A stretch of 64,000 nucleotides of DNA from the NCBI RefSeq assembly GCF_000003815.2, contig NC_049987.1, positions 18,215,164 through 18,279,163 of the forward strand, written 5' to 3'. Shown here one piece after another: positions 87-33,900 of the stretch. The DNA comes from Branchiostoma floridae. Its lineage: Eukaryota > Chordata > Leptocardii > Amphioxiformes > Branchiostomatidae. A model generated the notes under the pieces. The model did not search any database. It saw nothing but the letters and a program-made list of their open reading frames with translations, and was not told the DNA's origin. How positions within the stretch are numbered: the stretch's first letter is position 1; the number at the start of each line of letters is the position of its first letter. Both the position numbers and the translations under genes were made by a program.

Positions 87-3000
87 CTCTCCCTTCAACC
101 TTGGTGCGATGCACTCCTGTAGGGCATCTGACACCATGGAATGTTCCACTTTTGCAGCGGGGGTGAGCATGTTGGGGTTCCCTGCTTTTCTGGAGCGTTC
201 ACCAATCTTCACATTGATACTGGGTGAAGGGCCTGTAAATTCAAACAGTAAAAAAACATATTTCAAAAATGTTTCTGCTATTCGACTTTGACTTTGTATG
301 GATCCACATTTAGCTTAATAATGTTATGAACAATTTGAAGAAGTTTTGATACAGTTATGTTGAATTTCATAGAATCATAGATAGTACCATAGTCTTGAGG
401 AGAAATCCAGTGCTCTTTAGAATTAAGGCTTAGCCTAGTTCACCTTTATCTGTGGGTAACTCTATATTCAGGTCTTAAAGGTATATAGAGACATCAAATC
501 AATGGATGGTGGTTTCAAATGTTAACTACAATATCAATAGAATTAGGTAACCCTAACATTTAGAATTTATAACAATGGATATAGGTTACCCCACACATAC
601 AGATAAAGGTGAACTAGCATTTTTGGAATTGCTTTTAACCAGAAGTGTGACTAGTTGTAGCCATGCTCTCATGCACTGCAATAGTATAGTTTGTTTCTTG
701 TAAGCAATCAGACATGCTTTTATCAACACCACCATTTCTTCCCACCACCACCTTGATACAAAGAAAGTGAAGCGTTTGTAGTGAAAAGTCTGATTGATGC
801 CATGCAGTGAACATATCCAGTCTTACTCATGCACTGTTATTGCAGTTTATTGTAAGCAATCAGACATGCTTTTATTAACAACACTATCTCTTCCCACCAC
901 CACCTTGGTATAAAGAATTTGAAGACTTAATGTTTAGAATGAAAGATCCAATTGTTTCCATGCAGTGAACATTTCCAGTCTTACTCATAGGATTGGTATC
1001 ACTGAGACCTGCGGACGGCTGGCGCTGGGGTGGGGTGGTAGCTATAGGGCCTGGAGAAATGTGGGACACTGGCTTTTTAACAAATGGATGTTCTTGTACC
1101 AAATCTTCATTATTCACTAGTACACAGGACTACATGGATGTACACAAATTGTAACAGTAGCAAAATTCTGCTTTAAGGGTTATTGTAAAATTTAATACTA
1201 TTTTGTTAGCTTTACTATTGACAAGCACTGCAACTACAATGTAACATTCAATCACACAACTGTTAGAGAAAAATACATGATTTCTTAGAATTTTAAGATA
1301 ATGTTTACTTAATTTATATATACTTATAAATTAAAATTAACTGAAATAGAAACATAATATAATAGATTCAGTCTGCAGCAACAACTAACAAAATAATATG
1401 AATAAAACATGATCATTCTTCCTGTGAACATATCATGTGGACATAATCTCAACAAAAAACAGGTAATGTACCAATTTTGTTTTGAAATTCATAGTTCTAA
1501 TTTAAAATGGTTTAAAGAATATGTCATACAAAACATGGCAGACAAAGAAACGCTATCGTGATGTCCTGCCCTAGGTGACTGCAATAGAAACTAAACTACA
1601 GTCTGTAAGAAAAAAAAAAGAAGAAAAAACACAGTCAATTTATAACATGCATGCACTGTGTGGTATTGGGTGAAACACAAGTTAGTACAAAATTTCCCTT
1701 AGGGAAAAAGAAACTAATAATAGTCTAACTGTTCATATTTTGATCTTCATCTTGTTTGTTAATTTTCCAAAATCACCTACATGTACTAGTCAAACAAAAC
1801 ACTGTTATGCAAACTTGTGTGAACCCTGTTAGATTGAACCAAGTTAGTACATCTTCCTACAACTGAAACCTACTGATGTCGTGAGAGGAGCTTGCAGGTG
1901 TCAGCATTGATGCCATCTGTTGGACAGTTTTGGCCATTTTCTGGAACGTCATCGTTTCACTCTCTTTTCGTGGGACTTTTTCTGGGACCTTGGTCTTTGC
2001 ACCTTGTTGTAGAAATAATAATGATATAGCAAAAAAGCAATATATTGCATACAATTGGGCATGTACAAGACAGTAATGTACATGACCGTATGATTAATGA
2101 AAATAAGATTTTAGTGTGTATCGATCTAGTATAAACAATTGCAAACAACATATTATTAACAATTTTGCAATTGCAAACAACCAGATGTAGCCTTAAGTTA
2201 TAACACTACAAAATACCTGTTCAAGTTGTATGATTTCTAATAAAATTGAACTTAAGTCTTAACAGTTATGCATGATTAATTCCTCAGTGAAGCTTAACTT
2301 TAAAGCAAGTTGTCCAAAATGATTCTGATAACTAAAACAAAAGCTGCAACACCATGAAGAGAAATAAAAAAAGAACTTTGGTTATCAAACAATGGATAGT
2401 GAGTGAGTGGTGAAAGTAATACTCTAATCATCAAAACATTTAGTACACTGTAACTCAGCTTGTCAACTGTTGAAAGAAGTTTAATTATCAGGTAACCCCT
2501 AAAAAACAAAACAGATTTTAGTACTTTGTCATCATTGTCTGTGATAGGGGTGGGTACTGGTACAAAAAAATTCAGATTCTTCTGGACCTAATTTGTCTAT
2601 GAAAAGTTGTAAATGTTGGGTAATGCACAAAGCAATGGTCCATTTTGCTACATAGGAATCTTTTTGATTGCATATCTGACTTCAATTGGAATTTAACATC
2701 ATATCTTCATGTAAACAATGCTAAGTTTGACTGTAGAAACTTGTAGAAATGACTATATTCACTTTCTCTTTTTATTTTCTTTGACTGGTAAAACGTGTGA
2801 ACGCCTACAGTCCATTCAATTTGGCTAATCAGTCCAAGATGAGGTCCACTGTTTTTTCCCAGTGCAACAGGAAAAATGTTTTGTAGTGTACCGGTACCCA
2901 CCCTTACTCTGTGAGACCGTTAACCTACTGATATCACAGGAGTGCCGTTTTACAGCTGCTCTAGCATGTTGAACTGTTCCTGCAATTGTCTTAAAGGTGT

Positions 3001-3945
3001 ATCCTAAAGCATTGCTGCAACTCATAGATCTGGATGTGATTGTCTTTGATGCAGGTGCTGCAGATAAAGATGCAGTAACTGTTGAACAATGTCATGTAGA
3101 TGTAGCTGTAATGTTTTTATGATGATCTTGAATGTTACAAGCTCGCGATCAATCTTGTCCTTTTAATGTTTTGTCAAATGTTTTTGTTTCAACACTTAAT
3201 GATTAATATAATGCATGTAATACGCATTACACACACAGATCTGGTGTGGTAATGTCCACACATGTGTCTGACTCAACATTTGCCAATGAAAAGCATAAAG
3301 AAAAGATAAATTAGATACATTGTACATAATCACAAAAATCATTTAGATCCAACTGCAATGATATCTTGAGTTATGTTGTTCACACAAACAATGTCGTACA
3401 TACATGTAATTATGCACACATACACAGATTGAAGCACAATATTTTATGCAAACAAACCCCAAAACAAAATGACCCTTCATGACAAATTACACAAATTTCA
3501 TTCTTAGAGGCGGATGTTATCACATGATTTCATATCATATCAAATAAATGATAATCAAAATAATAAGTAAAAGGTGATTTTTCTTATATCATATAAGAAA
3601 AATCAATGTCATTTTACCTACAAGTGTCAGAGTGTACATAGTCTGTAAATGTAATACTATGATTATTCCTTTATTTCGATTCCATTAATCCATTATCATG
3701 GCTATATATCATAGTTACAGGACTGGCATAGGTTCAAATTGTTGACAGAATAGTTCTTACTTGTCTGGCTGAAGCCGGCCTGGGATCCGATAGCCAATGA
3801 GATGACACTGTTGGAGCGCGAGACCTGAGACATGGTCTCCATGGCCGCCTGTTTCTCCTCTTTAATAATCTTCTTTTTCTTGTAGGCGTGGCTGATGACA
3901 CCGGTCAGGGCAGCCAGACTGAAGTGGTGATGGTGTTCTTTTGGC
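87..3945 (-). CDS. Dynein exons 48-52: end of AAA1 interrupted by low-complexity exons
   Basis: Exon 48 (3945-3761) has HHHHFSLAALTGVISHA, replacing the usual HYDFGLRNILSVLRTLG, then Lys- and Ser-rich sequence. Exons 49 (3057-2929) and 50 (2002-1874) are both 129 nt, phase 1 to phase 1, and share TF..[IM]A.TVQ and a terminal DI. Exon 51 (1050-985; an alternative acceptor gives 1068) is Pro-rich. Exon 52 (232-87) returns to MVSDALQECIAPRLK, resembling the ALRDVNLPKF block that ends AAA1, and its donor is at the window edge. About 150 residues are thus inserted in the AAA1 small subdomain. Exons 49-51 are less secure than the rest. Confidence 0.68.
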
Positions 3946-6900
3946 CTGAAAATAAATTATTATATAGTGATATAATGGTCAAACTTGCTTTGAGCCTTTA
4001 GAAGAACTTCATTACACTACACTGAAGGCTAGAAGCCTGAATGAGTTGTGGTATACACATGACAAGTATTTGTAATTAGATACATTGTTTGAATCAGAAC
4101 ATTAAAGATTTGACCATCAAAATACACACAGAATTTAAAATCTTCTCATAATCTAAAATCAAGTTCAAACAATAAACTTGGAACATCTATAATACCTTAA
4201 AAACCTTATTGCCGTGCATCGAATTTTCTAAAAAATGACTCAGAAATAAGAACTTAAGACACAGATAGAAAAGGCTGACTCCATACTGCAAAGCTATAAA
4301 AAAATTGTTTTTTAATAGAAACATGAGAACTTATGTAATAGTTACAGTCTCATAATTCTAAAATTGGCATAAATATGATATTCATTTTCAAGCCCTTACT
4401 TGAATGTAAATAAATATAAAATGTATCTGTATTTTACTAACAAGTACTGATACCAATTCTATAGCTTTAAGTAGCAAATTTTAAACATAAAATTGCAATT
4501 CTCTTCTATTTAGTTAAAATAAATGATCTATTCATTAATTTTTAATGAAAAGGTATGAAAAACTTACAGCTGGTCTCTGCACAGATCAGCCATCAGTTTC
4601 AGCCTGTCAGCTAGGACCTTGGGAGACTTGAAGCCCAGCCCCGCAACTTTCCCGCGGAGGATCAGCCCCAGGTCGGGCAGCACCAGGGACACGTTACGGT
4701 ACAGGGCACGGATCTCCTGTGGCAGCTCAAACCCTCGCGACATGTCCTTGTTGATGGTGATGAAGGTCCCTACGTATGGGTCAACTGGTACCTATGGAGG
4801 GGGGGGCAAAGAGGAATGAAGTGTTGTCATATAAGTCATGCATTTTGTACTTCAGCGTAAATACAAGTCATATGTATATTCACATTATTCGTAATCGTGG
4901 AAATTCTATGATTAAGAATAATGTGAAACATTGTAGGACCTAGGAGGTTATATTGTCTATATAACCTCCTTGGTAGTACAAATACAAAATTTACATGTAC
5001 TATATACTTGTCAATGAATGTATAATTGCATAATCTCATTCACTTAGTACAACTATACATTTAAGAATGTTGGCAGTGGTTTTATTTTTGTGGTTTAATG
5101 GTTAACAGTTATACAGTTTATCATAATTATGGAGTACATAAATTGTCATACAATTGATGAAATTGTAAGAAAATAAAGCGAGTATATTAATTAAAAGTAA
5201 ATATGAAGGCTATGAAACTCTGAACTAATAGAATGGCTGCTTTGGCAAACACATATAGTCGACAAGCACAATGTAATCAGAAGCTAACATGACCAGAATC
5301 TGGGAACTAATAGCTTTCCTTTTTGAAGCAGTGTAAGTCAAGGGTTTACATGTAAAGTCTGAGTTACATAATCTTAAACTATGATATTTTGCAGATGTCT
5401 CAAAGGCCGTACCTCCTGTCCATCAGCCAGGTGACAGGTGTGTTTCCTGGCCCTCAGTGCAGTGTAGATGCTCTGGGCATGCTCCAACAGGACCCCCACA
5501 CAGGAGCGGTTCAAGTTGTGGAAGTTATCAAACAGGCCCCAACTGCCATCCTGAAAAATATGGAAAATAATATTCATCTTTTACAGTTCTAATCTTGGAT
5601 GTGTTATATAATTACCAAATGCTGTGGAACTTCAACTTATTGATCAACTCTGAGTCAACGATAAATGACAAGTAGAAATTTCTAACAGTACATGATTGTG
5701 TGATATTGTAGCTGTTTTTAATATCTTTCCATTTCTAAACTTTGTTTCTTCAAATATCAAAAATTCATAGTGCATTATTGACATAATACATCATGCCAAA
5801 GCGTGGGTAATAACAAAAAATAGACAATCATAATTTTCATTCAACTCAAGTGACACTGTATCCTTTCACATGGCCCACAAATATGGAACAAACTTTAAGA
5901 GAGATTTTTTCTATAAACCTGACTTACAGCTGCGAGTCCCTGGATGATCTTGCCCAGTGCTGCTGTGTCCATCTGTGGGAGACAGGCAAACACTGCCATG
6001 TACCTGCCAAGGAGGTACGCCAAACCCTGAAAAACCAAGTGTATACGGGTTTTAAGATATTACTAAGAATTATGATATCGCCATGGGCTTATAATACTAC
6101 TAAATGTTATCAATTTGCATGAAAGTAAATAATGATATGTTCACCATTTCACATAAAAAAATTATCATAAAATAAATACATATTCCAAAGTCTTACACAA
6201 ACACACACACACACACACAGTCACTTGGTTACAAAGTTACACAATGATTTACCTTGACTGTCTCAGTCTTGCCAACTCCAGTTCCACCAACCACAGCGCT
6301 GCCTTTCAACTGGGTCAGGGCCTAACACGAACATTAAAATTAAAAGTCAACACTATTGTACATTTGACCTGCACATCTTTATACATTGTAGCTATCGTTA
6401 ATGTTCCATGGCTTCTAAGTATAGATCTGAATGTTTAGCAGGGGGTAGGAGGTAATGACGTTGGTGCTGAAAATTGCCATCAAACAGGGACCCAACCACT
6501 TCGGAAACAATGGTAAGGGCATGGTGGCTCTACTGTTTGACTGATTTTATAATACGATTATTCAGACAAAAGCTTAACGCTAGTTCACCTTTATCCGTTG
6601 GGTAACCTATATCCGTTGCTTTTAAAAACAGGGTATTTGGGGATATCACGTTGATGGACGTTGGAATAAAATTGCAATATTTTCTGTACATTGCAGTTTA
6701 AAACTAACGCTAGTTCACCTTTATCCGAGGGTGACCTTTATCCGTTGTTTATAAAAAAGGGTATTTAGGGATATAAAGTCGACGGACAGTGGTTTGAAAT
6801 CTAAGTATTTTGAAAAAATTTCAAATTTAAAAGCCACATTCAGCAGACTTGATATTCCTAAATGTTCTGTTTTTAAAGACAACGGATAAAGGTCACCCCG

Positions 6901-9900
6901 CTAATAAAGGAGAACTAGCGTTACCACCCGTCGACTTTATGTGCCTAAATACCCTATTTTGTAAAACAACGGACATAGGTTACCCCGCATATAAAGGTGA
7001 ACTAGCGTTAGATGAAATAATGAAAATTTTCAAGTGTGAGTTTTTTTTCAAACTTACCTGTGACATTGTAAGAAAACACCTCTCAGTCAGAGCAGTCATG
7101 GCCAGGGGCAGGCGTCCGCCCAGAAACTCACACCCGTACTCGTAACGGCCATCCAGGATACACAACTGGTGATTTCCTGAACCTTCTGTATATGTGGAGA
7201 ACATAAATAACAGTTCACATTTACATGACATTGGTGTAGCATAACTGCAGGGTGTTTGGCTAAAGGCCCAGTGGTCCTGGTTGAGTTTCTCACTTCACAG
7301 TAAAAATTGAGTAGTACTAAATGTACTACCTACATGTTGTTGGCTTCAGTCAATGACATTCCTTGGAGGTCCCATGTTTGAGGAGGGCCACACATTGATC
7401 ATGTTAAAGAACCCAACACACTTATCAAAAAGGGTAGAGGTCCTTCCCGGTGTGAGTGGATCAATTAAATCTGTCTAGATATACAGCTTTTGCTGTTCAG
7501 TAAAAGAAAGCTAACCGGACATAATGATACAATGAAACACAGTCAGAAAGAAAAGCACACAGTCCAAGCACTAAGTATAAATTTCAATATAAGTAAGGCA
7601 AGACCATGTTACTATTTTATGTGGATGCATAGTTAAAGAATCTAACACAATAAAATTAATTCAAGTGTTGGCCATAACAACAACAAAAATTAATAAAATT
7701 GATAATTGTAAATGCTACCTCCTGATTCGTGCATGTAGAAGCGGATGTTCCTCCTCCACTCAAAGTCAGTCACATCCCTCAGTTTCCTGTTTCCCAGACC
7801 ATCCAGGGTGTCTCTCAGGTAGAGGGAGTACTGTCAGATAAAGACACCATCATAACTTATGTGTACATCTCATTCAACATTCTTTCCATGACTTACGATG
7901 TACAATCAAGAAAAGTGAATGGTACATTGTGTGTGCATGATTTGGGAGGGTAAGTTAACCAAACATGCACATTGGAGGAGGGAAATATGTAGCATTTGCC
8001 TTCAAACATTTAGCATTACCATACTGTAGTGCTAATGAACAGCTGTATTATTACAGTTATCATCCATGTATGTTGCAGTCTAAGTTTCTGTATGGGGAGA
8101 AAATGCTCAATCAAGCCCTACACAATTAATATAGCAGGGAGAATTATTATGTAGCATTTGTCTTCAAATAATGAGCATAATAATATAGTTACCATTGGAC
8201 AGAAGTATTTTTGAAAAGCTGTTATACTTACAGTAATCATATTTTGCAGCCTGAGTGTCTTCAACGTTTAACGTTTCTCTTCAAATATTGACCATCTACT
8301 ATACAGAACAATTTCAATGTATACTTACAGTGATCATATTTTGCAGCCTGAGTTTGTGGATAGGAAGGAATGGTTCATCCAGTCCTTTCCACGCTCCCCT
8401 GGTCAGACAGGTAGGCAGCCGATTGATGACCGTGCTGAACTTCTTGCTCGCGTTTGGGATGGCTTTACGCTCGTACTTCAGTTCTGAAACGGCCAGCTCG
8501 CACTCCTTTGTCCAGTAGTAGAGGAGACCCAGGCGAGCTACTTGGGAGGGGTACTGTAAAAAATAACATGTAATGTTAAACAAGTTAGAAGTGACTTTCA
8601 ATACAGGCTCTTTGTCAAAGGTAGTCCCATAGCCTTTTTGAAGCTGTAACACCCTTAGACTACTCCTACTACTTATGCCACAAATCCATATATCAATTCC
8701 TTTACAGAATGCAGATAGCTTATGCAACCTGGAATAAGTAGGATGCATTCGAGCCCCTAGCAGTTTGTCCTAGCACTACAACTGTTACAGCTCGACTCGA
8801 GTGTGTTTTTGTTAAAAACTTTGAAGCCATGATAACCCAAGAAATGTTTAACAGGAATTTTGTCTTGTGATTTTTTATTAAAAAGCTTAATATGGAACAT
8901 CAAAAATGTTCAAAACAGTGTCAAAAACTTTAAAATGCTAACTTGTTCAAGGACCACACAAAAAAGTTCAAAAAATCATGTTGACAACTAAAAAAAAGTT
9001 TCCAACCTTGAAAGCCCACTCCTCCATGGCCACTCCCATCCCGATGTCCCGTACGATCCGTGTGATGCTCTTGGCGATGGTTCTGTGGATGGACTGCTGG
9101 AGGCTCTGGAGCCACATCTCCACTCCATCTGTCAGACTCACCTGAAGATACCACAAAATTCTTATCAGTTACAATGTTCTTGGTAACTTAATAGGATGGC
9201 AAGTGATCTAAACAGCCACGCCACCTGCTGTGCATCACTAGAATTGCAGGCAAAACCTCTTTCTTTCCCAAATATGCCATGGCACACAACAGAGTATGTT
9301 GTTTAGTAACAGCACGATTTTCTTCAGTATTTCAGGGGAGTTTGAAAGTGTTATCAAGAATGGAGTTTTCTCAAATTTCCAATATAGGTGGAAGAAATGA
9401 GGAAAGAAAGCAAGTGATCTTGATACAGTTAAGGTCACTGAAGAGCTATTCTTCCACTGGTCATGACAGAGAAGGCAGATGATATTATATACAATATTAA
9501 CAGAATTCATTATACTGGGAAATTCCCCTTGCCCTTTTTGATTTAAGGCTCTGGCCTGAAATCAAGTAAGTAAGCTTAACATTGGCATTCTCTTATCCAT
9601 TCTCTTATCTACAAGAAATGATTTTCACATATTTTGTTCTATGTAGCATAGAAGATGTCTCTGTCCTTGGTGCTGATTTACGGCTTTAACAACACCAGGT
9701 AGAACATACAACATGGTATGCAGAGTCTCATTTTCCTACCTCTTCATCCAGTTCTAACAGTTCCCCCTCAGGAGACAAGGCTGTAGCAGCCTGCCACAGT
9801 TCACTGGACTCATCCACGTTACTCTCTGATAGGTGGATACTGCCTGAGCGTTCCTGCACACAAAAAACGTATAAAAAATGTGACCAAACTGAACTGCATT

Positions 9901-12900
9901 TTCTACCACACTATTCTATTGGCTAAAGGAGAGGTACAAAATGCAAGATCAGCTTCTCAACAACTTTTTATTTCCAAAGCAGCAACTTTTTGGCCACCTG
10001 TTTGAGGCATTTTTTTTTCATTTTTACTAAATTCCTAGAGACATCTGTTTGCCACAACAATGTACCTTTCAATGCCCAACAAACTGAAAATACAGTTCAA
10101 TGCAGTAATATGGTCAAAGTTTACAAATTAACAAGTTCTTATTTGAGAATCATAACAGTTATGATTCTCAAATAAGGACTTGTTAATTTGTATGTAGCTG
10201 AATGTACCGTACTAGATATCAATTTCCATATAACGCTAGACTAAGTTCACCTTTATCCGCGGGGTGACTTTTATCCGTTGTTTAAAAAACTGGGAATTTA
10301 GGGATGTCAATGCGTTGGACGGTGGTTTTAAATAGGTTGTAACTTTGAAACCACTGTCCATCCGCTTGATATCCCTAAACATCCCCTGGTTTTAAAACAA
10401 TGGATATAGGTTACCCCACGGATAAAGGTGAAGTAGCATTACATTGTAACAGTTACTAAATTATATTCTATACAAATGTTTATTATGGCAAATGTAATCA
10501 GAAGCTATCAAAGTCTTTGCAGTGTCTCTTTAAGCTTGAAAACAAAGACCTACCGATTTTTTAAAGGCTTCAGAAGACATAGGTCCAGGGAACCTCTCCA
10601 CGGGGGGTAGGTTGATGGATGCCCGTGGGGTGGTGGCCCCTCCCCGTGGGACTGGGGCAGCCCCAGGGCGTCTGTAGTCCACAAAGGAGGGAATGGGAGT
10701 CTTCTCTCCGACAGAACTCAGGGTGTCTTCTGTCTTCTCCAGTTTTACATCACTCACGTCACTGAAGATGGACCTGGAATGGGAGTAACAGAACCAGTTT
10801 ATTTTCAGCCAATGGCTGGTTGTCAAGCAAGGTCATGTGACCTTAATCACTGGTCATTTAAACCTGAAGGCAGCTATATACCTTTTTGGTGTTAGAATAA
10901 ATCTTAGCTACACAAAAATTTATTATTTCATTGAATTTCCTAATCATGTGAAGATTTTTTGTACACAAGATTGAATTTCATTGGGATCTGGATGATCTTA
11001 AAAGAAAGCAATTTGAAAGTACTGTGTTGAATGTGTATTATATTATTATATTAGATTGACCCAAAATTTATATAAATTTGATTTCCATACTTATGTCTAG
11101 TAGAGTTCCAACACAAAGTAACAGACAAAATTAAAATTGAATCTCATAATTTGATGAATAAACAAAAATACTGCTTATAAGTTATTGATAATTCAGTAAT
11201 CATACTCATCACAAATTATCATACGTGGGATATTTTCGTTTGCTTAGATAACTTAAGCTGGATATACACATGTAGGATGAGGGCTAAAAATATCCAATAC
11301 TTTTAACTCTATTTTGTCCTTGAAACTTTAACCTTGTCCTTGAAACTCTTTCTACTAAGAATGCATCCCCACCAATTTGTTCTGTTAGAAGGAAAACTTG
11401 GTAGTGAGAGAGACTCGTAATGTGATCACACTTACTTGAGATGAGGCCTGACAGACTCCAGGTCGTACGGACGGCTCAGCATGGACAGCAGTACGGGGTC
11501 GGACAGGAAGAAGAACCGTGGGAACGCCTTCCTCTTGTTGTCCAGGTAAGACGTGAGAGACTTGAAACACACTTCGAGATCCTCCCGGAAGTGGCGGAGA
11601 ACCACGCCTTTCGGGATCTCACCTCCGTAACAACACTGCAATTAGATGGGAGAAAATAAAAAGATTCAGTAAAATTTAGTCAGATTTTTTTCAAGATTAA
11701 CAGTTGCTTTTACATTTATCTAAGTAATACTCTCTTTCTACTGTTTTCAGTTCAGTCACTGAGCAATTTTTCCCATATCTTTCAAGTAGGATCTTTAAGT
11801 TATTTTCTATAAACATCCTATATATCCAGCATTACCCTAAAACTTAGTAGTATGCCTACATTTGTATGGCATTCTCTACCTATAGTATGGTTACATGAAT
11901 TAAAGGTAATTCACGGATCAAATTTCCAACAATTTACATCAGGGCACTCCAGCCATCACTGAATAAAAACAATGAGTATTATAAACTTCCTGGCACTTTT
12001 GACCAATTGCTGACATCACGTATCCTCAAGATCAAGTATTAATAATATCATTTACAACTCTCTTGAGCTTACGTTCTAAAGTGATTGGTCATCAGTAATG
12101 ATCATATGAAGATGGCGACAGTGGTCACTGGAAATTTGATCCTTGTATACCTTTGTGTTGGAAGAAAGTTTAGCATTGTACTATTATATAATTTTGATCA
12201 TAATGATTATTGCTACCAACAAAGATGAGCTGCCATGATAATTCCTGACCTGTAGCACATTCCTGGTGTCGTAGGTTTTCCTCATGAGTTTGATCCAGCT
12301 CTTGTCAATGCGGATGAACCTCTTGGCCTCCTGGGGAAGCTCCTTAGCTGTGGAACTGTTACTGAACACGGCTTCTAGATACTGCCACAGGTCCTGCACT
12401 TCTAACCATGTCTCTAAGACCTCACTTACACCCTGGGGAAGGAGGGAAGAAATTAGTGAGTGAACAGAAGAAAGAAAATAAGTTGTGGTACTGGCACTGT
12501 ACTGTGGTGCTTACGAATACTGTAAAAGGTAATCAGAAGAATGAAAAAGGATAAGTCACAGTAGATTACTGTACTTTGACTTTATTTCAATTGCACAGGC
12601 ACAATACAATGTGGACAAATTAAACACAGCTTAACCCTATCTAGACCGGGCTTTTTTGGTATACCTGGGACCGGGGGGGGCTCTTTTGACCCCCCCCCCC
12701 CCTTCGTAATTTCAAAACGGCTTGGGTTACGATCACCAAATTTGGAGGGGATGATGTAGTTACTGTAGTAAATTTTTATATTTTCTGTAATTTTGGTATC
12801 GTAATGACGTAATATGACGTAATTATGACGTCATAATGTCATATTTTGGGCTAAAATCGTCTAAAGATGAAATTTCAGGTATACTTACAAAATGTACAGG

Positions 12901-15900
12901 TATTAAACAAAACGATGACTATAAACGTTAGATTATTTGTGTCTAAGTCTACCAAGTCTTTTGTTGCCATTGACGACGACGCCTATATGACGTCAGAAAA
13001 TGACGTCATTTGTCCGCCATCTTGGATCGACAAGCTTGAATTTTCTAAAATACGATTCTTTCCACATAGATCCCCCAAACCCAATAAAACTGGACTAAAA
13101 AGGTGCAAGTAGTTGTGTTTTGTAAGAAAATAAAAGATTTTGACGGTATTTGAGTAAAAATAACATGTATTTATCATTGAAAATGTCATTGTCCGCCATC
13201 TTGGATTTTGACCCATGACATCATCAAATTAGCATAAATTATGAATTTTTAATTAGAAATGTAAGTTAAGATTACACAGGATGTTAATAGTATAGATAAA
13301 TAAGTTTGGTCTAGCAATAAAACCTTGAAATCCCATATTCCAACCGGAATTTGGAAAATTGGGTTAAATAGCCCGGCCAGAACCAACCTAAATTTTTTTT
13401 CGCGGAATTGTTCCCAAAAATCCTGTGGGAAAAGTCCCCGGGTTTGGTGGTCTTGGCATACGTCTTTGGGCGGTTTTCGGCCGTCATTTTGGGGGCGGGC
13501 CTTTTTGGCCCCCCCCCCCCCCCCCCCCCCCCCAGTCTAGATAGGGTTAAGGTGTAAAAGTACTCAGTCTGGCCGTGATACCCAGCACAAAAAAATGTGT
13601 TATCCACACACTAATCAAACAGAATGTGACCAGCTATCAAACTGAATGTGACCTTGATAACTGCAAGTTTGCAGAAGCAACAGATGATTCTGTTTTACCC
13701 TTGAGCTGTATATGGGCACTACCATCTTGTAAAATAGCTGCTACCATCTTTTACCATTAACAAATTTGTGCCAAGAGTTTGACCTACCTTGAGTTTCTCA
13801 GCCCATGAGGCTGCCTCCTCCCTGAGAGGCCCGATGTGTTTGGATGTCAGCATGGTGGCCAGCAGGGCCTGGGCATCCTCCAGCTGTTCCAACAGCCGCT
13901 CCGACTCATCCTTCGCAAGGTAGATGGCACCACGCTTCTTGTAGGATTCAAACGTCAGCACCTAATATAATATAACATGTACATAAACTGCATTAGCACG
14001 GAACTTATCCGTTTTGCGGTTAAACGTGAATATAACAACATTGTCTCTATTGTCTTTAGCTATATTGTTTTGTATAGCCTTCATTAATTTTAGGAATTCA
14101 ACTTAATGTGCATTCATATATTAACATATTATAACAGCATTTTAACTAGGTATTTGCCTGGTTCTTTCTTTTGATTTGAGGAATAAAGTTATTGACACAA
14201 TGTGCATAGATGTCAAGTCTTTTGTTCTTTTTGAGGTAAACTTGAGTTTGCTCGGGTTGGCATGATATAGATAAAATACAACACAAGGGATTCTGTATCA
14301 CCGGAGGTTCCAGCCCTCGGGCGATAGCCCCCATGTTTTATCATATTCAGACCTGTTCAGTCCACTCTTCCTCGATAGTCCTCATCTTGATCTCCAGTTC
14401 AAGCTCAATGCTGGCAGCCTTACAGATCTCATGGATCTCATCATGGTGTCTACAGAAAAACAAAGTTGAACAAAACAGAAAAATTAGTCAGAACATTATC
14501 CAGATGAAGATACCTGAAAAACAATAACCAAAAGCAAAAATGTCTACACCGCCTTTTGCATTTTTTGTGGCCTCCTTCAGTCAATATTGACCATATATGC
14601 CTGGTAAAAACATCCTAATTGATATCAGCCATATAGCTTTGACTACATGTATGACTACAAACACCACACCTGGTGACATAAAACTGGAAAACTTGTGATA
14701 GAAATACAATAGTCATTTCAAATCAAGCCTAATGCTAAAACATAGGATTTTTTATTTATTGGTTTGGCTGCAACGAACACACAGCCAGGGGCTGCCCAAC
14801 TAGCCTATGGCTATTACAAAGGGCTATCCCTGCTGACAAACACATAAACAATACATATTAAAAAAGAACATTTATATGTACATGGTGTAGGACAACTTAC
14901 ATATCATCTAAAAATGGAGTATAACGTTATATTAACATCATATCATCGACAACAATATTTGCAGTGAGAGGTCAGGGTCTGTATATACACGTGTATGACT
15001 AATTTACCATGCGTAAGGGTTGCCTAGACATTCCCACAGTTTTCTTTTGAAGGAAGCAGTGGAGGTGGCTGTGCGAGTAGCAGTTGGGAGAGTGTTCCAG
15101 AGTGCTGTTGCTCTGTAGATGAATGTTCTCTGGCCTCTGGTGGACTTAGTGAGTTCAGATGTCAGGTGGTCGCTGTTCCTGAGGGAGTAACGTGACTCAG
15201 TAGCAGATGCACGGGTTCTGGGTATCAGGGTTTGAAGGTGTGGAGGGCAGTGACCGTTGAGGAGCTTGTACAGGGTGACAGCGGTGTGGAATTGGATCAC
15301 ATAGGATCCACACTCTTGCTGCTTCTTCTTGCACCTTCTACATGTTACATGGTACATACTGAAAGAAAAATATATTGTACTTACTGTATGAGTCCAATAT
15401 CCAAAAGATGGTGCAGTTTGAAAGCCTGGGCCTCCAGTGGGAAGGAGCTGCCAGTTACAGACATAACCTGCAGCCAGTGGCGGTTACGGATTTCCTAATG
15501 GTGACAAGGCAGGAAAAATTTAGACATGCAACTCACTAATAGAAAAATTTCTTTTTTTCTTTAAATTTTTTTAGATTTTTTCAAACTTTATTCAATATTT
15601 CAGCATAATACACAATAGCACATACATCATTGGAGCACAATAAAAAAAAAACATTAACATGAGGTATAACAGGACTGGGTGAGAGAGAGAGGGATAGTAA
15701 GAGTTGATCATTGGTCTGTGATTGACTTAACAGGTGTATCTAAGGGATATCTATCATTGGCATATTGGCAATTTTAGCTTTAAAGTATTTCAACTAATAG
15801 AAAAATTCACTAATTCAAGTTTTTAGGCTTAGTACCTACATGTGTACGTCTTGAATCATTTTGATTCTTTTTATGTCAGTCAATCACTGTGAACTTTATA

Positions 15901-24900: not shown

Positions 24901-27900
24901 CAGGACGGCGTCGTACACCTTCTGACAGTAGTGCTCTGTGGATAGATGGTAACAATTTGTTTATAATTATAGAACATAACCTTTAAGATTTGTAATACAC
25001 ACATGTATGCTGCAATTCTAAATGATAACAGTAATAAATGTTTGAACAGCTAAGTGTAAACAAATTTTCAATGCCAAACTTTAATGTTGTACATAATAGA
25101 TTACATTTTTCCTTCATTAGGTAGGACAATCAGTCTTTTTACTACAATAGAAAGCAGGCTGAATAAAAATTCTAACTTGAAGCTATGCGACTCCACTGTC
25201 CACCCAAAAAAAGTCTACTACTAGGTTTTTTTAGGTAAGGTAGGAAACAGGAAACACAACATTTTTTTCCAAGGCCTAATTATCAGTTTATTGCCATTGA
25301 CCATACCCTTATTTGTAATGGCCATGTAAAAAAGACTCTTTTTCTCTGAGGTCCCCTGGCCAGTACTATTCTGTGTTTGTACATACTGTTTGTAGAGAAT
25401 TATGACAAGAAAATAGACTGACCCAGTAGTTCGTTGACCACCAGATCTTCTGTGACTTCGCTCAGTGTCTGTAGAGTCATGGGTGTGTCCCGCTGACTGG
25501 GCGCCTTACTTCCCCGCCGGGGATGATGGGAAGGTGCCGTGGACACCCGTGATGCAACTGGAGACTGGGAAGGTGACCCAACCTGCGAAAAATGTGCATA
25601 TCCCAAAAAAATCAGTTTTCCTGGTGGTGAAAGCTCTTTGAAAGCAGTTTCTAAATATCTTAATAAAATTATATAATTATCGATTCAGGATTTTCAACAA
25701 AAATTTGCTAGTCGTGAGACAAGTCTAGTGTAGAGGTGGCTAATTGAGATGAGAACAAAAGTCATTAGAAACTTTTTAATTACAATTTACTCTTTGAGTC
25801 GATACGGAGAATAGATATGGAGAGTTTTGTTTTAATTATGCATGGCTTAAAATTGCCATTGTACATTTACCATCAGTAGCCCGAAGGCCGATGTCATCAT
25901 AGATAAAAATACCGATTCATAGTTGAACAGTAATTTCCGACAAACAATCGGATTAGCCATAATTTCGAACTGTGTCTAAGTCCAGTGTTCGAAATTAGGA
26001 ATATGCATTCATTTTTTTGTCATGCTATGTGTCCTGGGGAGAACCCTTCACTGAGTCTTACTCAATCATGGAAGCTCAACTGTGTTAGAAGTAATCATTA
26101 TATGATGCATTTTTTTTCCAACACTAAGGTGTACATGAATCAAAATTCAAGCAACCACTGTGGCCTTCTTCAGGATCTATGTTCACCAGTCAATTCGGAA
26201 CACAACCGGTGAAATGGCCTAGTGGGTAGAGTGTTTGCCTTGCATTCGGTAGGTCGTGCTTTCGATCCCCGGTGGAGTTATACGAAATACTTTAAAAATG
26301 GTACATGCTGCTTTCTCTGCTTAGCACTGAGCATTTGGGAAAGAGTATGGAAGTTGAACACACACCACTACCAGTGGACTAGCCCCCTGCTGCAGTGATT
26401 GCGTTGTGTGGCCCAGGGCTAAGGAAACAGAGATGGGCGCCACCCTATGCGTCATCAGGCACGGGAAGGGTTTAACTTTTAACTAACTTCGGAACACAAA
26501 CTCACGAGAGTACAGACATGTGATCTTATTAACACAGGATCTTACGGATACAAAAGTCTTACCTTATTGGACATGAGGAAGGACACTATTTCAAAGATGG
26601 CACTCTCCACTTCATTAACAAACTCTAGCAGCTCCTGTCCCTTCTCTTCTACACTCTGCAGCATGGCTTCTCCAAACTCACCAGGGGGCTAGAGCATCAA
26701 CAAAACAATATAATGATCTTATTATTGAATTTTTTTTTTCAAATCGTCAAAACATTAACACATTGAAGATTGTCATTTTGTTGTATTTTCTTTTTTCGAA
26801 CATACGGTATGAAAAGTACTGGGACAAACTCTTTGGCAAGATGATGACACATAATGAATTTTACATGACCCCCAATATCATTATGGTAGTGTCCATTTCT
26901 TATTATCTCTGGAGTTAGATTTGGGTTAGACATAAATGTATCAGCATTTTAAGATTGGCCTCACTGAAAAACAATAATAAAGATTAATATGTACATTGCC
27001 AGACGAGTTAACAAAATGTAAATTTTAGAGCTTGTGCTTTATACATGTCTCCTTCATGTTCTTCAGTGAATGGCCTCTATTCAAAAATGTTTTATATCCA
27101 TTCAACATTTCTAAAACAATAATTATTATTGTTCAGCTCTACTAGTGAAAGTGGATATCTAAGAAAAAATCAACTTGTTTTCTAATGGAAAATGTTGTCA
27201 TTCATGTACGCATCCTTGTTAATGGCTGGTTCTTTCATAGAATCACTGAAAATTCTAAAACAAAACAAACATCACAACTGTGCCTTATGTATAGCTAAGT
27301 GTACTCACCCAAGCCTTACTGAAGGCCAGTTCCATGTCAAACAGCACCATACCGCTGACTGTGTCCACGGTTCCCTGAACCTTCTCCTCTATGATGTTAA
27401 TAACATGCTGGACAATGCTGTCCAACCGAGCTATGGCCGAGTGAACCTAAAAGGGATAAAAAGAACAAGACACTTTATTCTGAAGAAAGAAAATGAGACA
27501 GACACATGTTGTAACAATGTAAAAGTAATGCTACAGTTCACCTTTAACCGCAAGGTAACCTATGATCGCTGTTTTCAAAAACAAGGCATGCAAGGATATG
27601 AAATCGACAAGGGATGGTTTTAAATATGCTGAAAATATTGCAATTATTTGAAACTACCATCCGTCAACTTGATATCCGTGAATAACCTGTTATTGATAAC
27701 AATATTTATAGTTTACCCCACAGAATAAGGTGAACTGGTTTTAATGGCTTATTTTGTTACAGAATTTTGTCCAACTTTCCTAGTCTTCCCTTCCGTATGG
27801 GAAAAGTATAAAGTTTAATATCAATGAAATACACAATCCCTAATAATAATTAACAACAGTTAGTGAGTTACGAAACCTCTTGAAATAGTGGTCATCATAT

Positions 27901-30900
27901 AAGATACTTTGAATCCTAATCTTTTAATCTCTGATTTCCAAAAAATGGCAGTTTAACATGATTGTCGCATTTTCAGCACCAAGGACATGTAAACTTCTTA
28001 CAGAAGGTCAATTTTAGATACTGCTTCAGAACATTTCATTCTTATACAGTCAGGTGTGTGTGTCACATTTAAGTTTTTATAATCATCATATAAACTAAGT
28101 CATCTTTAAAAAGATGCATGTCTGACTTCCTGTGCATCATGCACAATGCAAAAGCTGTACTCTGCCCTCAAGCCTCGACCCACATTTGACTAAACTTAAA
28201 GAGCTCTAGGCATCAGTTATCCTAAGAAAATGAAAACTTCAGATTAGGGGTGGGTACCGTTATAGAAACTTTAGGTCCAGGTCCAGAGGAACAGGTCTAG
28301 GTCCGGACCTGAACCTGGACCTAATTGTTTGTGAATGGGCAATACTCAAAACATCTCGCTACAAAGGAATCTGTCTGGCGGAGTATCCTATCTTCACGTA
28401 AACAATGCTAACTGCCTCTGTTAAGTTAGACCAAGTTTGATTGCAGAACTTGATAAAAATGACTATCAATTCTCACTTATTTGAACGCGTCCTTTGTTTA
28501 CAGATGAGCACAATGGTATTACTGCTTTTGAGCAAAATCCCCCTATGACGAAAGCAGTTCATTTCGTTCAAAGGGGTCAATTGGCCTAGCCTAAATCACT
28601 CAGCTTTTTCTTTCACCACAATTACTTACTGTATGCAGGAATGCGTCTATGTTCATACTGTTCCAGGTAAGAGTGGTGAGTCCAGGCTGGAAGTAGTGCA
28701 GAGTTGCCTCTGTGTGTACCAGGAACAGCTGTTTCATGGGTGCAGGGATCTTACCACACACATCCCTGTATTCCTGCAGACACTGCTCGAGGTGCATCTT
28801 GTAGCTCTTAAACCGATGTTCCTGGTGAAAAAAAGAAAATTAGACGAATGATATAGAGTAAATGCATTTAACAAGCAGCGACACCTGTCCTGCAGTACAA
28901 TGTGAACCAGTCAGAATTGCCCTGAAGAAGGTGACAGATGGTCACCGAAACGTGGGTTTGAATAAAACAGTGGTTGTGTAAAAAGAGTCTTTATTCAGTG
29001 ACGTACCAACCTGATGAAACTATTCACGGATAAATGCATTCAAGTTCGCAGTTATTTACTTTCTGGTTAGCAGGAAAATTGAGTCTTTGCGGTTGTTTTA
29101 AGTTCACGATAGTGCCAAAGACTGTAGTGACATACTATAAGGGGAAAATGCTCGCGATGGTTTAAGTTTGCGGTTAGTTGCCACCGCAAAAACTGTGAAC
29201 ATTTCTGCATTTACAGTAACTTGTTTTGTTTGTTTTAGGGGCATTTTTACATCTAAATGGAAAGAAAACAAAAAAGACCCTTTTTTATACCTGGATTAAA
29301 GTAAAAAATACAACTGGTGCTTTTAATTCTCTTTGCAAATACAGTATAAATTCATTTATTTTTGTGGGAACTTTCTCGCAAAATGGTCAAGAAGTATTTC
29401 ATGTGTTTGAAATTAACAGTCAGTTGAAACAATACTGTAGTGAAGTAGAAAAAATAAAACACATTTTTGGGTGGTATGATTTTGTAAGTATTACAATCTA
29501 TGAAAGATGAAGAAGCAAAACCAATGGGGACATTCCAAGACTTACAGTAACTGTTACTGTATACAGGTCAATAAGCCATTTCACATTCCCTAGTGCACAT
29601 GTGCAGTGGTGATTCTATCTCATCTAAGGTTAAAGTCTAAGGTCCATGGCCATTCTTTAGGTTCCGGTTCGGAATTTCAAGTGACCAGATATCTAAATAG
29701 TCCCTAAGAATAAGACGCAAATCAGAGGTTGTCTCAGTCTATTACTAAGTTTTGGCTCTAGATTTTCCGGCTATCGCTTTAGCAATGTATAATCTTTTAT
29801 AGTTCTCCAAATGCTTGTTGTTCGTAGCGTTTTATGGTGCTGGAGATTTGATCGTGCGGCAAGCATTTCCTGGTATTAGTGCGCGCAATAGCGGTAAAGC
29901 GTTTCGTCGCCTGGTTACCCAGATCGTGCGTTCTATGTGCGATTTGGGTGTTTTAGCGCCATCGGAGCTCGCGGAAAACGTATCGGATTACTTTTCTTCC
30001 TTTTTGCTCAGTATACAGAAGAACTCTTGACCTTCATTGCCATATTAGTTATTATCCCAGGAAAATTCATTTTTTTCCGTGTAGCGGCCTGTAAAAAAAG
30101 CCCCCAAATTAGCAATTTCTGGGTGAAAATTGTATTTTAATGATGGTTTTTACCAAAAATAACATTTCTACAGAAAATGTCAAATGAGTCTGTCGGTCAG
30201 CGACAAGGCACCATTTTCTATCGGAAACATCGAATTGTCCGAAAAACGATGTTTTGAGAAGCGCTAGTGCTTTTTTTAGGACTGTCACAGTCAAATCAGC
30301 CCCGAATCGTAAAAAAAACTCCGAACTAGAACCTTAAACCACAGACTGGGGCCTTAAACTTTCACCTTATGGTACCAGGATGCATCACAACTGAACATGG
30401 GCACAAGGAACTGTGAACTCCCTTATTGTCAGGGGACATTGAGAATATAGATTGGTTTATTGATTCAGTCGGTGAACATTAAAATACATCGCAGATACCT
30501 CTACACAGTAGAAGATGCTGAATTGCGCATTTTAGACACTGTACTTCATACATATGTAAAATCTAGCTTAAGTTTACAAAAATACAGTAACAAGAAATCT
30601 TATTATAGGAATCTAGACTTTACCTGTGCTACAATGTCCTGCACAGACTCAGGCATGGGGATGCCTAACCGCACCATCCACCTGGACTCTTGGATCAGCT
30701 GCAAGATTCTGGGGACAAAAATGTATAAAAATGTCTTAGACTCACAAAATCATTTTTTTTGGCATTTTTAAGCTTTTCTAAAAATATTTTTGGGCTTGGA
30801 TATGATACAAGTTTTATGCAACGTTGATTGGTGCAAGAATGAGTAAATATCTAGCTTTAATTAGGTTTCCCTGAAGAAACTAAAGAAACAATGCTAATTT

Positions 30901-33900
30901 AAAAACTGTTGGTAGACAAAAGAGAGTTGTAGAAAAATGTTATAAACATATTTACAATGTATGTCACGTACATGTACATCCCTTGTTGCATGAATAGTTT
31001 TTAAAGCGCAAAGTCAACACATTCTGAAAATAGTCAGCATATTATGAAAAAAATTATTATTGACATTTGAAGGCCACACTTTGCTTCTCTAACTATTGAT
31101 GGTTGATAAGTTATTGGGATAGTTAGGCTAACTAACCTTTCGTCAGCATTAACCACGATCTCCGCTGTCTGTGGGTGGTGTAAAAGTAGCATGGCCCTAA
31201 GGCCATTCTTGGCTCCGTCTATGTAAGCTTTCCACTGCTGCAGCCACAGTGTCTCAAACGTCACCTGAAACAAATAACTTAGTCAATGTTTAGTATGTGC
31301 ACTCTCTCACTATATTAAGATACAGACTGTAATATCAATTGCATTCTTGCTTTCTTTTCTTTGCTTGCAATGACCAATATTTTACATAATAAAAAGAAAA
31401 CAGGTTTGAAGAGAGAAAAATAAGTGTCTTAAAATTCACAATTCTTACAACTTGTCAAAACTTGAAAAGCTCAAAATCTAGCTGTTTTTTTTTCTTTATT
31501 TTACAAAACAGTCCCTTATCTAGGATATATATGTGATTTTGCAGGTTTAATGAAGTTTTTTGGCAAATGTACAATAGAAAAATACAATTATTAGTTTTTG
31601 GTTTCTTTGCACTTGCAGTTGTGACAGCAATAAAACAAAAATGCAAGTGCCTATTTGTGGGAGTGACACTGAATTACTATTATGAAGATTTAGTCTATAA
31701 TATGAAAAAAAAATCTAACATCTCAAGTTATCACAGACACATAGTAAATCAAAGACCATGACTGACCAGTGTGGTAGCGATCCTGTTGTACAGTTTGACC
31801 ACTCTCTGGAAGTCCTTGAGATGGGTGATGGCCTTGGTGTCACGGAACACCTTCATGGGATCCTCTATGGTGGTCAGTAACTTCCTACACCAGAACACAG
31901 ACCCTGCCACAGGGGGAGCATTTCTGGGGATGGGGGGCTCATCCTGGAAAAAAGAGAAGGGATAGAAAATATTTAGACCTAAAAGACTACACTACTGTGT
32001 GTATTTTTGCCACAATTTATAATGAATGGTACTACTATATATATATGTAATTTCAATGTCTTGAGACACACTTCAATGTTTCTATCTTGGAAACAAGGTG
32101 TAAACAACAATCAAAACCAACATAAAATTACACATGCCCTTCCAGTTACACTACAAGTAGTTTCATGATTTTGTTGTATAGTTTTTCTAGATATGATTTA
32201 TAATTTTCTTCATCCCATTTTTTTTCCAAAAGTACAATTTTTGCTTTGGGTACTCTATTTTCTTTAAATAGGGAGGAATAGATCTGAATTGAAGTTATGA
32301 AAAATCTAGGGACTGAGGTGACCTCTGACCTTTTCTCGTTCGTACTTCTGCTGAACTTGCTCCAGGTCAAGTTCATACTGCTGGAAGGTCTCCACGTATT
32401 TCTCAGCTATGGTGGCTCGGATTCCCTGACGAGCGCCTACTGGTGCAAACCTGAAATAGAGAATAAGATTATTTTTTATTTAATATCATAATGACCCTCC
32501 ATGTATCAATATTGACACTGTCTAAAAAGATCAAAGTTGTCAGTGTCAATAATGAAACGTAATGTCCCAGTCATTTGCAGGCATAGTCTGATCCATAAGC
32601 TTAACTTGTCTTAAGGCTACAGACAGTTTGCGCTACCGTGGGTAGTTTCTATACCAGACTGACTACACTGTCCATACACTGACACACCCGCTATACACTT
32701 TCAGGGGTAGGAGGAACCCCCTGCATCCTTGGTTCAGAAGTCCTCCTAGGAGACGGAAACTCCAAATAACAAACCTGCATTTGCTAGGGCCATGGCAAAC
32801 AATTCTGTCCCTGTGAGCCTTAGTTTGCCAGTAGACAAGAGGGTGGAGAAGGACGTGCACATCCCTGCTTCACCTTAAAAAGTCATGTGCAGGCCAGGCA
32901 GATGGCAAGTAATAACTGTCTGCCTACCAATGTCTTCCAAGACAGATGAATGCAAACAAAAACAACAACACTGGCCATTATTTATAGGCAGAATAATTTG
33001 CCAGGGGAGTTTTGCTACCAGACCAGTTGGCCGGCTGTGCAGCAAGTCTATGGTTCGATGAAAGGCAATAAAACTAAACCGCTCCTTTTCTACACAAAGA
33101 CAGTAGCTTCGGAGTTCAGATCATTTAAGCCATTACTCAATTAACATGCGGTGAAAAGTAAAAGATTATGTGGCGCACCTCTGTAAGATGTTGATGCATT
33201 CGTTAGTCTTCATCTTCCTCTGGAAGGTGGCCTGCAGGTATGCACACATCATGGAGTCTAACAGCTGGGCAGTCTCCTGGAACTGTTGGTACGCCTCCTC
33301 AAATCTAGACATAAGATAAACAAATGTTGACAAATAAATATTTACATCATGGAGTCTAGCATCTGGGCGGTCTCCTGGAACTGTTGGTATGCCTCCTCAA
33401 ACCTAAACACAGGAACATCTTCCAGTTAGAGTGTGTTTACTACTGACAAACACATCAAAAATATTGTTAATGACGTCATTATGTCAATCATTACGGTCAC
33501 ACTTTAGTTATCTTTTCAAACTCTCAAACAAAGTTGGCCCCAGTAGTTCCAAAACAAGCTGCTACAAATGTTAAGGGTTAAACCTACAGTACATATGGCA
33601 GTTCTATCTACTGCTTATCTACTTAAAAATTAAAACGAAATATCCGGACCATGACAAGTGCAAACCTGAAGTTCTGCCAGAAAAAAGGTTAGAGGGTAAA
33701 TAGTTAAATGTTTCCTTTGTTTAGCTGAAACATACCTAGCTATCAAATATCATATAGATCCATTCAGGCAGATTTTCAAAATGTGATACAATTGCTGTAT
33801 CTTTAAAGATCAACAACAGCTGTCCATATCACCTGTCCTTATCTTTGCCCTCCACGTCCAGTAGGGCCGGAGTGTTGACCACCTGAGCAAAGCTGTCAGT

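Follow-up and report, generated by a model that had tools for sequence, protein, structure and literature searches.

The AAA1 module with an altered Walker B motif on the minus strand of the window (the whole stretch of 64,000 nucleotides that was analyzed, C9:18215164-18279163) probably belongs to a complete and selectively kept dynein heavy chain, which would descend from the outer-arm gamma class (DNAH5/DNAH8) and no longer act as a force-generating motor. A preliminary description of this DNA had proposed that the gene is not dead but codes for a selected dynein that is non-hydrolyzing or structural, and this is the reading best supported by our sequence comparisons, as the predicted protein extends to a normal C-terminus and its tail is conserved like that of working gamma chains. 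To the earlier picture we add its gamma class, a degraded AAA4 and stalk, and two more dyneins, of other classes, that lack the same glutamate. Dyneins are usually treated as motors. A complete dynein in which the tail, but not the engine, has been kept at the usual rate would offer a direct test of whether selection keeps dead dyneins as structural parts.

Because the window truncates the gene after AAA1, sequence was added on both sides (100 kb downstream, 20 kb upstream) before a spliced model was built with our own dynamic programme; genome-wide searches covered 513 Mb in 431 contigs. The model runs on the minus strand from a methionine at window position 43350 to a stop at C9:18168511, comprises 116 exons and encodes a protein of about 5190 aa, so that assembly of the full gene, done here as a genomic spliced model, gave a full-length dynein heavy chain. 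Within the window it has 54 whole exons and 2,487 codons (dubious micro-exons counted) and then continues outside; the earlier figure of 2,600 open codons is approximately correct. Twelve of the 116 exons are of zero length or shorter than 40 nt and are not to be trusted, and five micro-exon strings were taken out of the model protein before it was used as a query. The final model was curated, with ten intervals masked and a bonus given to one AAA3 P-loop exon; earlier, unmasked runs yielded mostly the same main exons, but without the AAA3 P-loop exon and with some of the exons that were later masked. Because the model excludes in-frame stops by construction, its open frame is no independent proof, and we put weight on the homologous blocks that continue across exons. 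In AAA2-AAA4 these follow exon after exon, with 874 residues vs 871 of DNAH5. The start is backed by homology, as the alignment to the Chlamydomonas gamma chain pairs residue 1 of the window gene with residue 3 of that chain. No second haplotype was found: in a search of its own genome, 4,151 bases of the gene matched only the gene itself and a dispersed repeat.

Several further sequence features were observed along the gene. The dispersed repeat, of approximately 250 bp, lies in an intron (window 11929-12187) and occurs in tens of places at 74-85% identity (candidates scored genome-wide). The end of an AAA3-region exon (LLSERLI and the donor) is present three times at a spacing of approximately 124 bp, at window coordinates -8247 to -8644. 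On the same minus strand, 3' of the dynein gene, there is an open stretch of approximately 1,779 aa (piece L015, ~2532-7868) that is, by eye, very acidic and Ser-rich.

For the Pfam scan the model was divided into five pieces, leaving out some 127 residues at the junction of proteins 1 and 2 and 14 at that of proteins 3 and 4; at one of its joints, protein 4 departs from the model by a single residue. The scan identified DHC_N1 (373 bits), DHC_N2 (285 bits), AAA_6 (257 bits), AAA_7 (153 bits) and AAA_8 (80 and 53 bits), as well as AAA_9 (112 bits), Dynein_heavy (82 bits), AAA_lid_11 (59 bits) and Dynein_C (123 bits). Together with AAA2, which has no profile of its own in the scan and was assigned by alignment to DNAH5, the tail, linker, six AAA modules and C-terminal domain of the dynein superfamily are present in order (Table 1). 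Genome-wide family searches, which are independent of the model, match exons of the gene in AAA1 (one exon, 46.7 bits), in the linker (three exons) and in AAA6 (C9:18175622, 57 bits).

Table 1. Features of the dynein gene in the window (positions are those of the window).
Feature	Position	Strand	Basis
First modelled exon (MDERHWW...), N-terminal tail	42832..43350	-	Model and PDB alignment
Tail (DHC_N1, 373 bits), model exons between the ends	26563..43350	-	Pfam, alignment
Linker (DHC_N2) exons, three matches (C9:18226571-18229121)	11408..13958	-	Genome-wide family search
AAA1 first exon, ending CILDGRYEYGCEFLGGRLPLAMTALTERCFLTMSQ	7058..7185	-	Spliced model
AAA1 exon with intact Walker A (ALTQLKGSAVVGGTGVGKTETVK); GGTGVGKT at 6265-6288	6253..6321	-	Spliced model
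AAA1 exon GLAYLLGRYMAVFACLPQMDTAALGKIIQGLAA, holds FACLPQMD	5928..6026	-	Spliced model
AAA1 exon DGSWGLFDNF, Walker B FDNF; Asn codon at 5524-5526	5413..5550	-	Spliced model
AAA1 exon: sensor-I region TFITINKDM, in which Asn is kept, and ELPQEIRALYRNV	4568..4791	-	Spliced model
Exon after AAA1 (PKEHHHHFSLAALTGVISHAYKKKK...), matching the HYDFGLRNILSVL region of DNAH5	3761..3945	-	Model and DNAH5 alignment
Last exon wholly within the window; AAA2-AAA6, stalk, C-terminus and stop continue to C9:18168511	87..232	-	Model

Within AAA1, the Walker A motif GGTGVGKT is intact and the Walker B region reads GSWGLFDNF, with an asparagine (codon AAC) in place of the catalytic glutamate. Both features had been noted before and are confirmed here on spliced exons; the motifs FACLPQMD and TINKDM are likewise present on the minus strand, and the interval 4568..6321 given in the preliminary description coincides with exon ends of the model. 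Besides Walker A, the module retains the Walker B Asp and the sensor-I Asn (TIN). Conversion of AAC to GAA or GAG takes two base changes, and residues around FDNF have diverged too (L for C, H for N, N for R), as has the sensor region. The AAA1 piece matched Pfam AAA_6 with 256.7 bits and 84 distinct PDB sequences at E <= 0.001 (best E 8.8e-44). A different exon with FDEF at this place had been put forward as evidence that would speak against a functional non-hydrolyzing motor; a six-frame scan of window coordinates -3000 to 12000 found no such exon. Five matches to the pattern [FLIVYW]D[ED][FYALCV] were present in this interval, by eye none of them in a dynein Walker B context, and the AAA1 profile matched the six modelled exons and gave two weak matches (4.1 and 2.8 bits; E 1.4 and 3.4).

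The available text of two publications describes AAA1 as the principal hydrolysis site, with AAA2-4 being regulatory (PMC7215579), and reports that hydrolysis by a dynein construct was virtually abolished when the AAA1 glutamate was replaced with glutamine (PMC4359366). The window gene resembles such laboratory Walker B mutants, as far as they are described there, in that Walker A is kept and the catalytic glutamate is gone; it differs from them in being natural, in having Asn for Glu, and in carrying further changes in AAA3, AAA4 and the stalk. AAA2 retains GPPASGKS and LDGP, and AAA3 retains GPPGSGKT(S) and FIDDINMP. AAA4 has GAIGSHLVT, in which the P-loop lysine is gone. The Pfam MT profile (stalk/microtubule-binding) was not matched at E <= 0.1 in the model pieces scanned; stalk-like coiled coils and an IRAFQNPP turn were seen by eye. 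The stalk region carries acidic and Ser-rich insertions, and phmmer scores of this region against the DNAH5 and DNAH8 chains were approximately zero. The parts that do not align are a tail insertion (query 369-704, between two aligned blocks), the link between AAA1 and AAA2, and the stalk.

The dynein class was assigned with phmmer against all PDB chains, using the tail, AAA1-4 and the part from the stalk to the C-terminus as queries, and by similarity the window gene appears closest to the outer-arm gamma class (Chlamydomonas gamma, DNAH5, DNAH8) in all three. The best relatives of the tail are Chlamydomonas gamma (7kzm_C, 389 bits) and DNAH5 (298 bits). For AAA1-4 they are DNAH5 (584 bits), 9fqr_I3 (562 bits) and Chlamydomonas gamma (522 bits), followed by two matches of 507 and 502 bits, labelled only 'putative', which we take to be gamma-like, and by one of 443 bits, presumably the best chain outside the gamma class. 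The part from the stalk to the C-terminus matched 9fqr_I3 (442 bits), DNAH5 (438 bits) and Chlamydomonas gamma (413 bits). We read chain 9fqr_I3 as DNAH8, while the label on its row names another protein. In a tree of the tail, DNAH5 and DNAH8 pair at 98 and the window gene falls outside this pair, beside Chlamydomonas gamma at 60, its exact place being weak (60, 54); its branch is long (1.02), similar to the path of DNAH5 and not shorter. In a tree of AAA1, for which rows were patched from exon pieces with some wrong letters at the joints and the locus at C3:9.14M was omitted, the window gene groups at 88 with C10x, a divergent dynein on C10, and the two adjoin the gamma clade with a support of 34; their pairing may reflect long-branch attraction. 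By eye, no AAA1 intron position is common to the window gene and the four gamma paralogues of this genome. The gene thus shares with the gamma class its best matches, an N-terminus aligned from residue 1 and its level of tail identity, and departs from it in the loss of the AAA1 catalytic Glu and of the AAA4 P-loop, in a stalk that the profile does not recognize, and in low-complexity and acidic insertions in the tail, the AAA1-AAA2 link and the stalk.

Tail and motor differ in how far they have diverged. Over the columns alignable to the window gene, a choice that biases the tail and the AAA1 comparisons in its favour and places the tail insertion between query 369 and 704 outside the counts, tail identity to Chlamydomonas gamma is 36.3% (214/589) for the window gene, 37.1% for DNAH5 and 35.4% for DNAH8, and AAA1 identity is 37.7% for the window gene vs 70.6% (DNAH5) and 72.0% (DNAH8). 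The corresponding values are 36.4% vs 44.7% and 46.9% in AAA2, and 27.4% vs 54.3% and 50.6% in AAA3. Where all three working chains share a residue, the window gene has it too in 98/149 columns in the tail, 74/156 in AAA1, 73/130 in AAA2 and 49/116 in AAA3. As the tail matches Chlamydomonas gamma about as well as those of DNAH5 and DNAH8 do, whereas AAA1 and AAA3 do not, the tail looks selected and the motor relaxed.

In a structural dynein of this kind, the tail would still assemble into a dynein complex and anchor the protein. AAA1 would bind ATP without turnover and the head would, as a consequence, stay in one conformation; AAA2 and AAA3, with intact P-loops, perhaps still bind nucleotide. 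The protein could then serve as a structural or regulatory arm that does not stroke, such as a spacer, a brake or an assembly platform. An intact Walker A is also expected of a recently disabled motor.

A different identity, as the amphioxus orthologue of human DNHD1, has a considerable chance of being correct, if somewhat less than an even one, and the mechanism could be the same. Human RRP8 and ARFIP2 presumably flank DNHD1, and in genome-wide family searches neither family has a match on C9, C1 or C10. All three RRP8 matches (PF05148) are on C7, vs the window gene on C9, and the eight arfaptin matches comprise five above the cut-off, on C7 and C176, and three below it, on C13 and C176, so that synteny lends the orthology no support. 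It is favored by the finding that, among the AAA1 and linker matches listed, the divergent dyneins are the window gene, C1x (on C1) and C10x, and a DNHD1 orthologue, if present, is therefore likely to be one of these three. The likeness of the window gene to DNHD1 lies in size and description: the available part of one paper gives 4753 aa for the human protein, a divergent dynein-related gene of a size class similar to the about 5190 aa modelled here, and reports variants in men with sperm flagellum defects (PMC9916431); in the accessible text of another, DNHD1 is termed an orphan and a 'ghost gene', possibly becoming a pseudogene (PMC8754002). The name DNHD1 is absent among the PDB matches shown (the best 60 of 84, or 31, per search). 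Among the papers listed in literature searches on DNHD1 or amphioxus dyneins, none was seen to treat the Walker motifs of DNHD1, and those listed for published inactive outer-arm heavy chains included nothing relevant.

The idea expressed for DNHD1 in the available text of PMC8754002 can be applied to the window gene itself: it would then be a gamma-chain duplicate that is slowly decaying, its frame still open only because shortened products do harm or because the decay began recently. The strong divergence of AAA1, AAA3, AAA4 and the stalk would agree with this, but the tail is no further from Chlamydomonas gamma than that of DNAH5 or DNAH8, and since the window gene falls outside the DNAH5 and DNAH8 pair (98% for the pair), decay would have to predate the divergence of these two. 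When the model CDS, which itself excludes stops, was mutated neutrally and without indels, 0.1 substitutions/site produced a mean of 50 stops (20 runs). We consider a slowly decaying gene unlikely. Slow turnover at AAA1, supported by the asparagine together with the Asp before it or by some other acidic residue, or a shift of the main site to AAA3, is quite unlikely. AAA1 has kept Walker A, the Walker B Asp and the sensor-I Asn, and AAA3 combines GPPGSGKT with FIDDINMP, its P-loop GPPGSGKTS being more canonical than GEQGTAKTV of DNAH5; against this, AAA3 is otherwise poorly conserved (27-29% identity), the stalk has insertions and a profile not found by Pfam, and Glu-to-Gln at the same site virtually abolished hydrolysis according to the available text of PMC4359366. 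Finally, wrong base calls in the genomic assembly or the use of another exon in the true transcript could mimic the lesion. This is extremely improbable, given the two base changes required, the lack of an FDEF exon between -3000 and 12000, and the divergence of the residues near FDNF and of the sensor region.

In this genome, 110 AAA1 matches were grouped into 22 loci, the match lists for AAA1 and the linker being lower bounds. Walker B was seen in 21 loci (C3:9.14M was not covered) and reads FDEF in 18; it is absent as such in the window gene, C1x and C10x. C1x (about C1:9.80-9.83 Mb; C1:9796500-9837000) has DHC_N1 (402 bits) and DHC_N2 (320 bits) matches, a Walker A of GHGKQ(E) and, at Walker B, GCWVAFLHLDIL, with neither Asp nor Glu. 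Its AAA region is nearest to DNAH17 (244 bits), DNAH9 (232 bits) and Chlamydomonas beta (227 bits) and its tail scores 396.5 bits to Chlamydomonas beta vs 231 to DNAH9; by these similarities C1x is of the beta class. Its tail identity to Chlamydomonas beta, 31.7% (180/567), is below the 45.4% between two working beta chains, which indicates drift in the C1x tail that the tail of the window gene does not show. The genome-wide AAA6 search gave no match near C1x. C10x (C10:17.20-17.26M; C10:17244200-17258000, with AAA6 at C10:17204397) has GPEGVGKSET as Walker A and CLDDANH (LDDAN) at Walker B. It is nearest to DNAH6 (256 bits vs 221 for the next chain), and we take it to be possibly DNAH14. As the three genes appear by similarity to come from three dynein classes, the comparison suggests repeated loss of the AAA1 engine among the dyneins of this genome. 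The window gene and C1x both lack the AAA1 glutamate and both have recognizable outer-arm tails, and they might even form a gamma-beta heterodimer that would dock in the manner of an outer dynein arm and never stroke. Such a pair, which we regard as rather unlikely, would be a permanent non-motor arm of the axoneme or cytoplasm, acting as a spacer, brake or assembly platform.

Some additional observations were made at other dynein loci. In C10x two pieces are tandemly duplicated, an AAA2 piece (LLDQNRGIHLANGDT...) and a P-loop piece (VMLVGPSGSGKTT) (piece L042, ~2992-3339 and ~5089-5317). At C19:13544947-13545429, dynein AAA6 matches lie in an open frame of 242 aa, with no AAA1 or linker neighbour among the matches listed. 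In a dynein on C19, the exon piece DLGKAMAVQCVVFNCSDN is repeated ahead of the full AAA1 exon at a spacing of approximately 75-78 bp, with 16 matches in piece L021 (~590-1790; also L002, ~1-590). In a dynein on C11, the complete Walker B exon is accompanied by a partial duplicate (GVGQRGAWGCFDEFNRID) next to it (piece L029, minus strand, frame starts 792 and 932).
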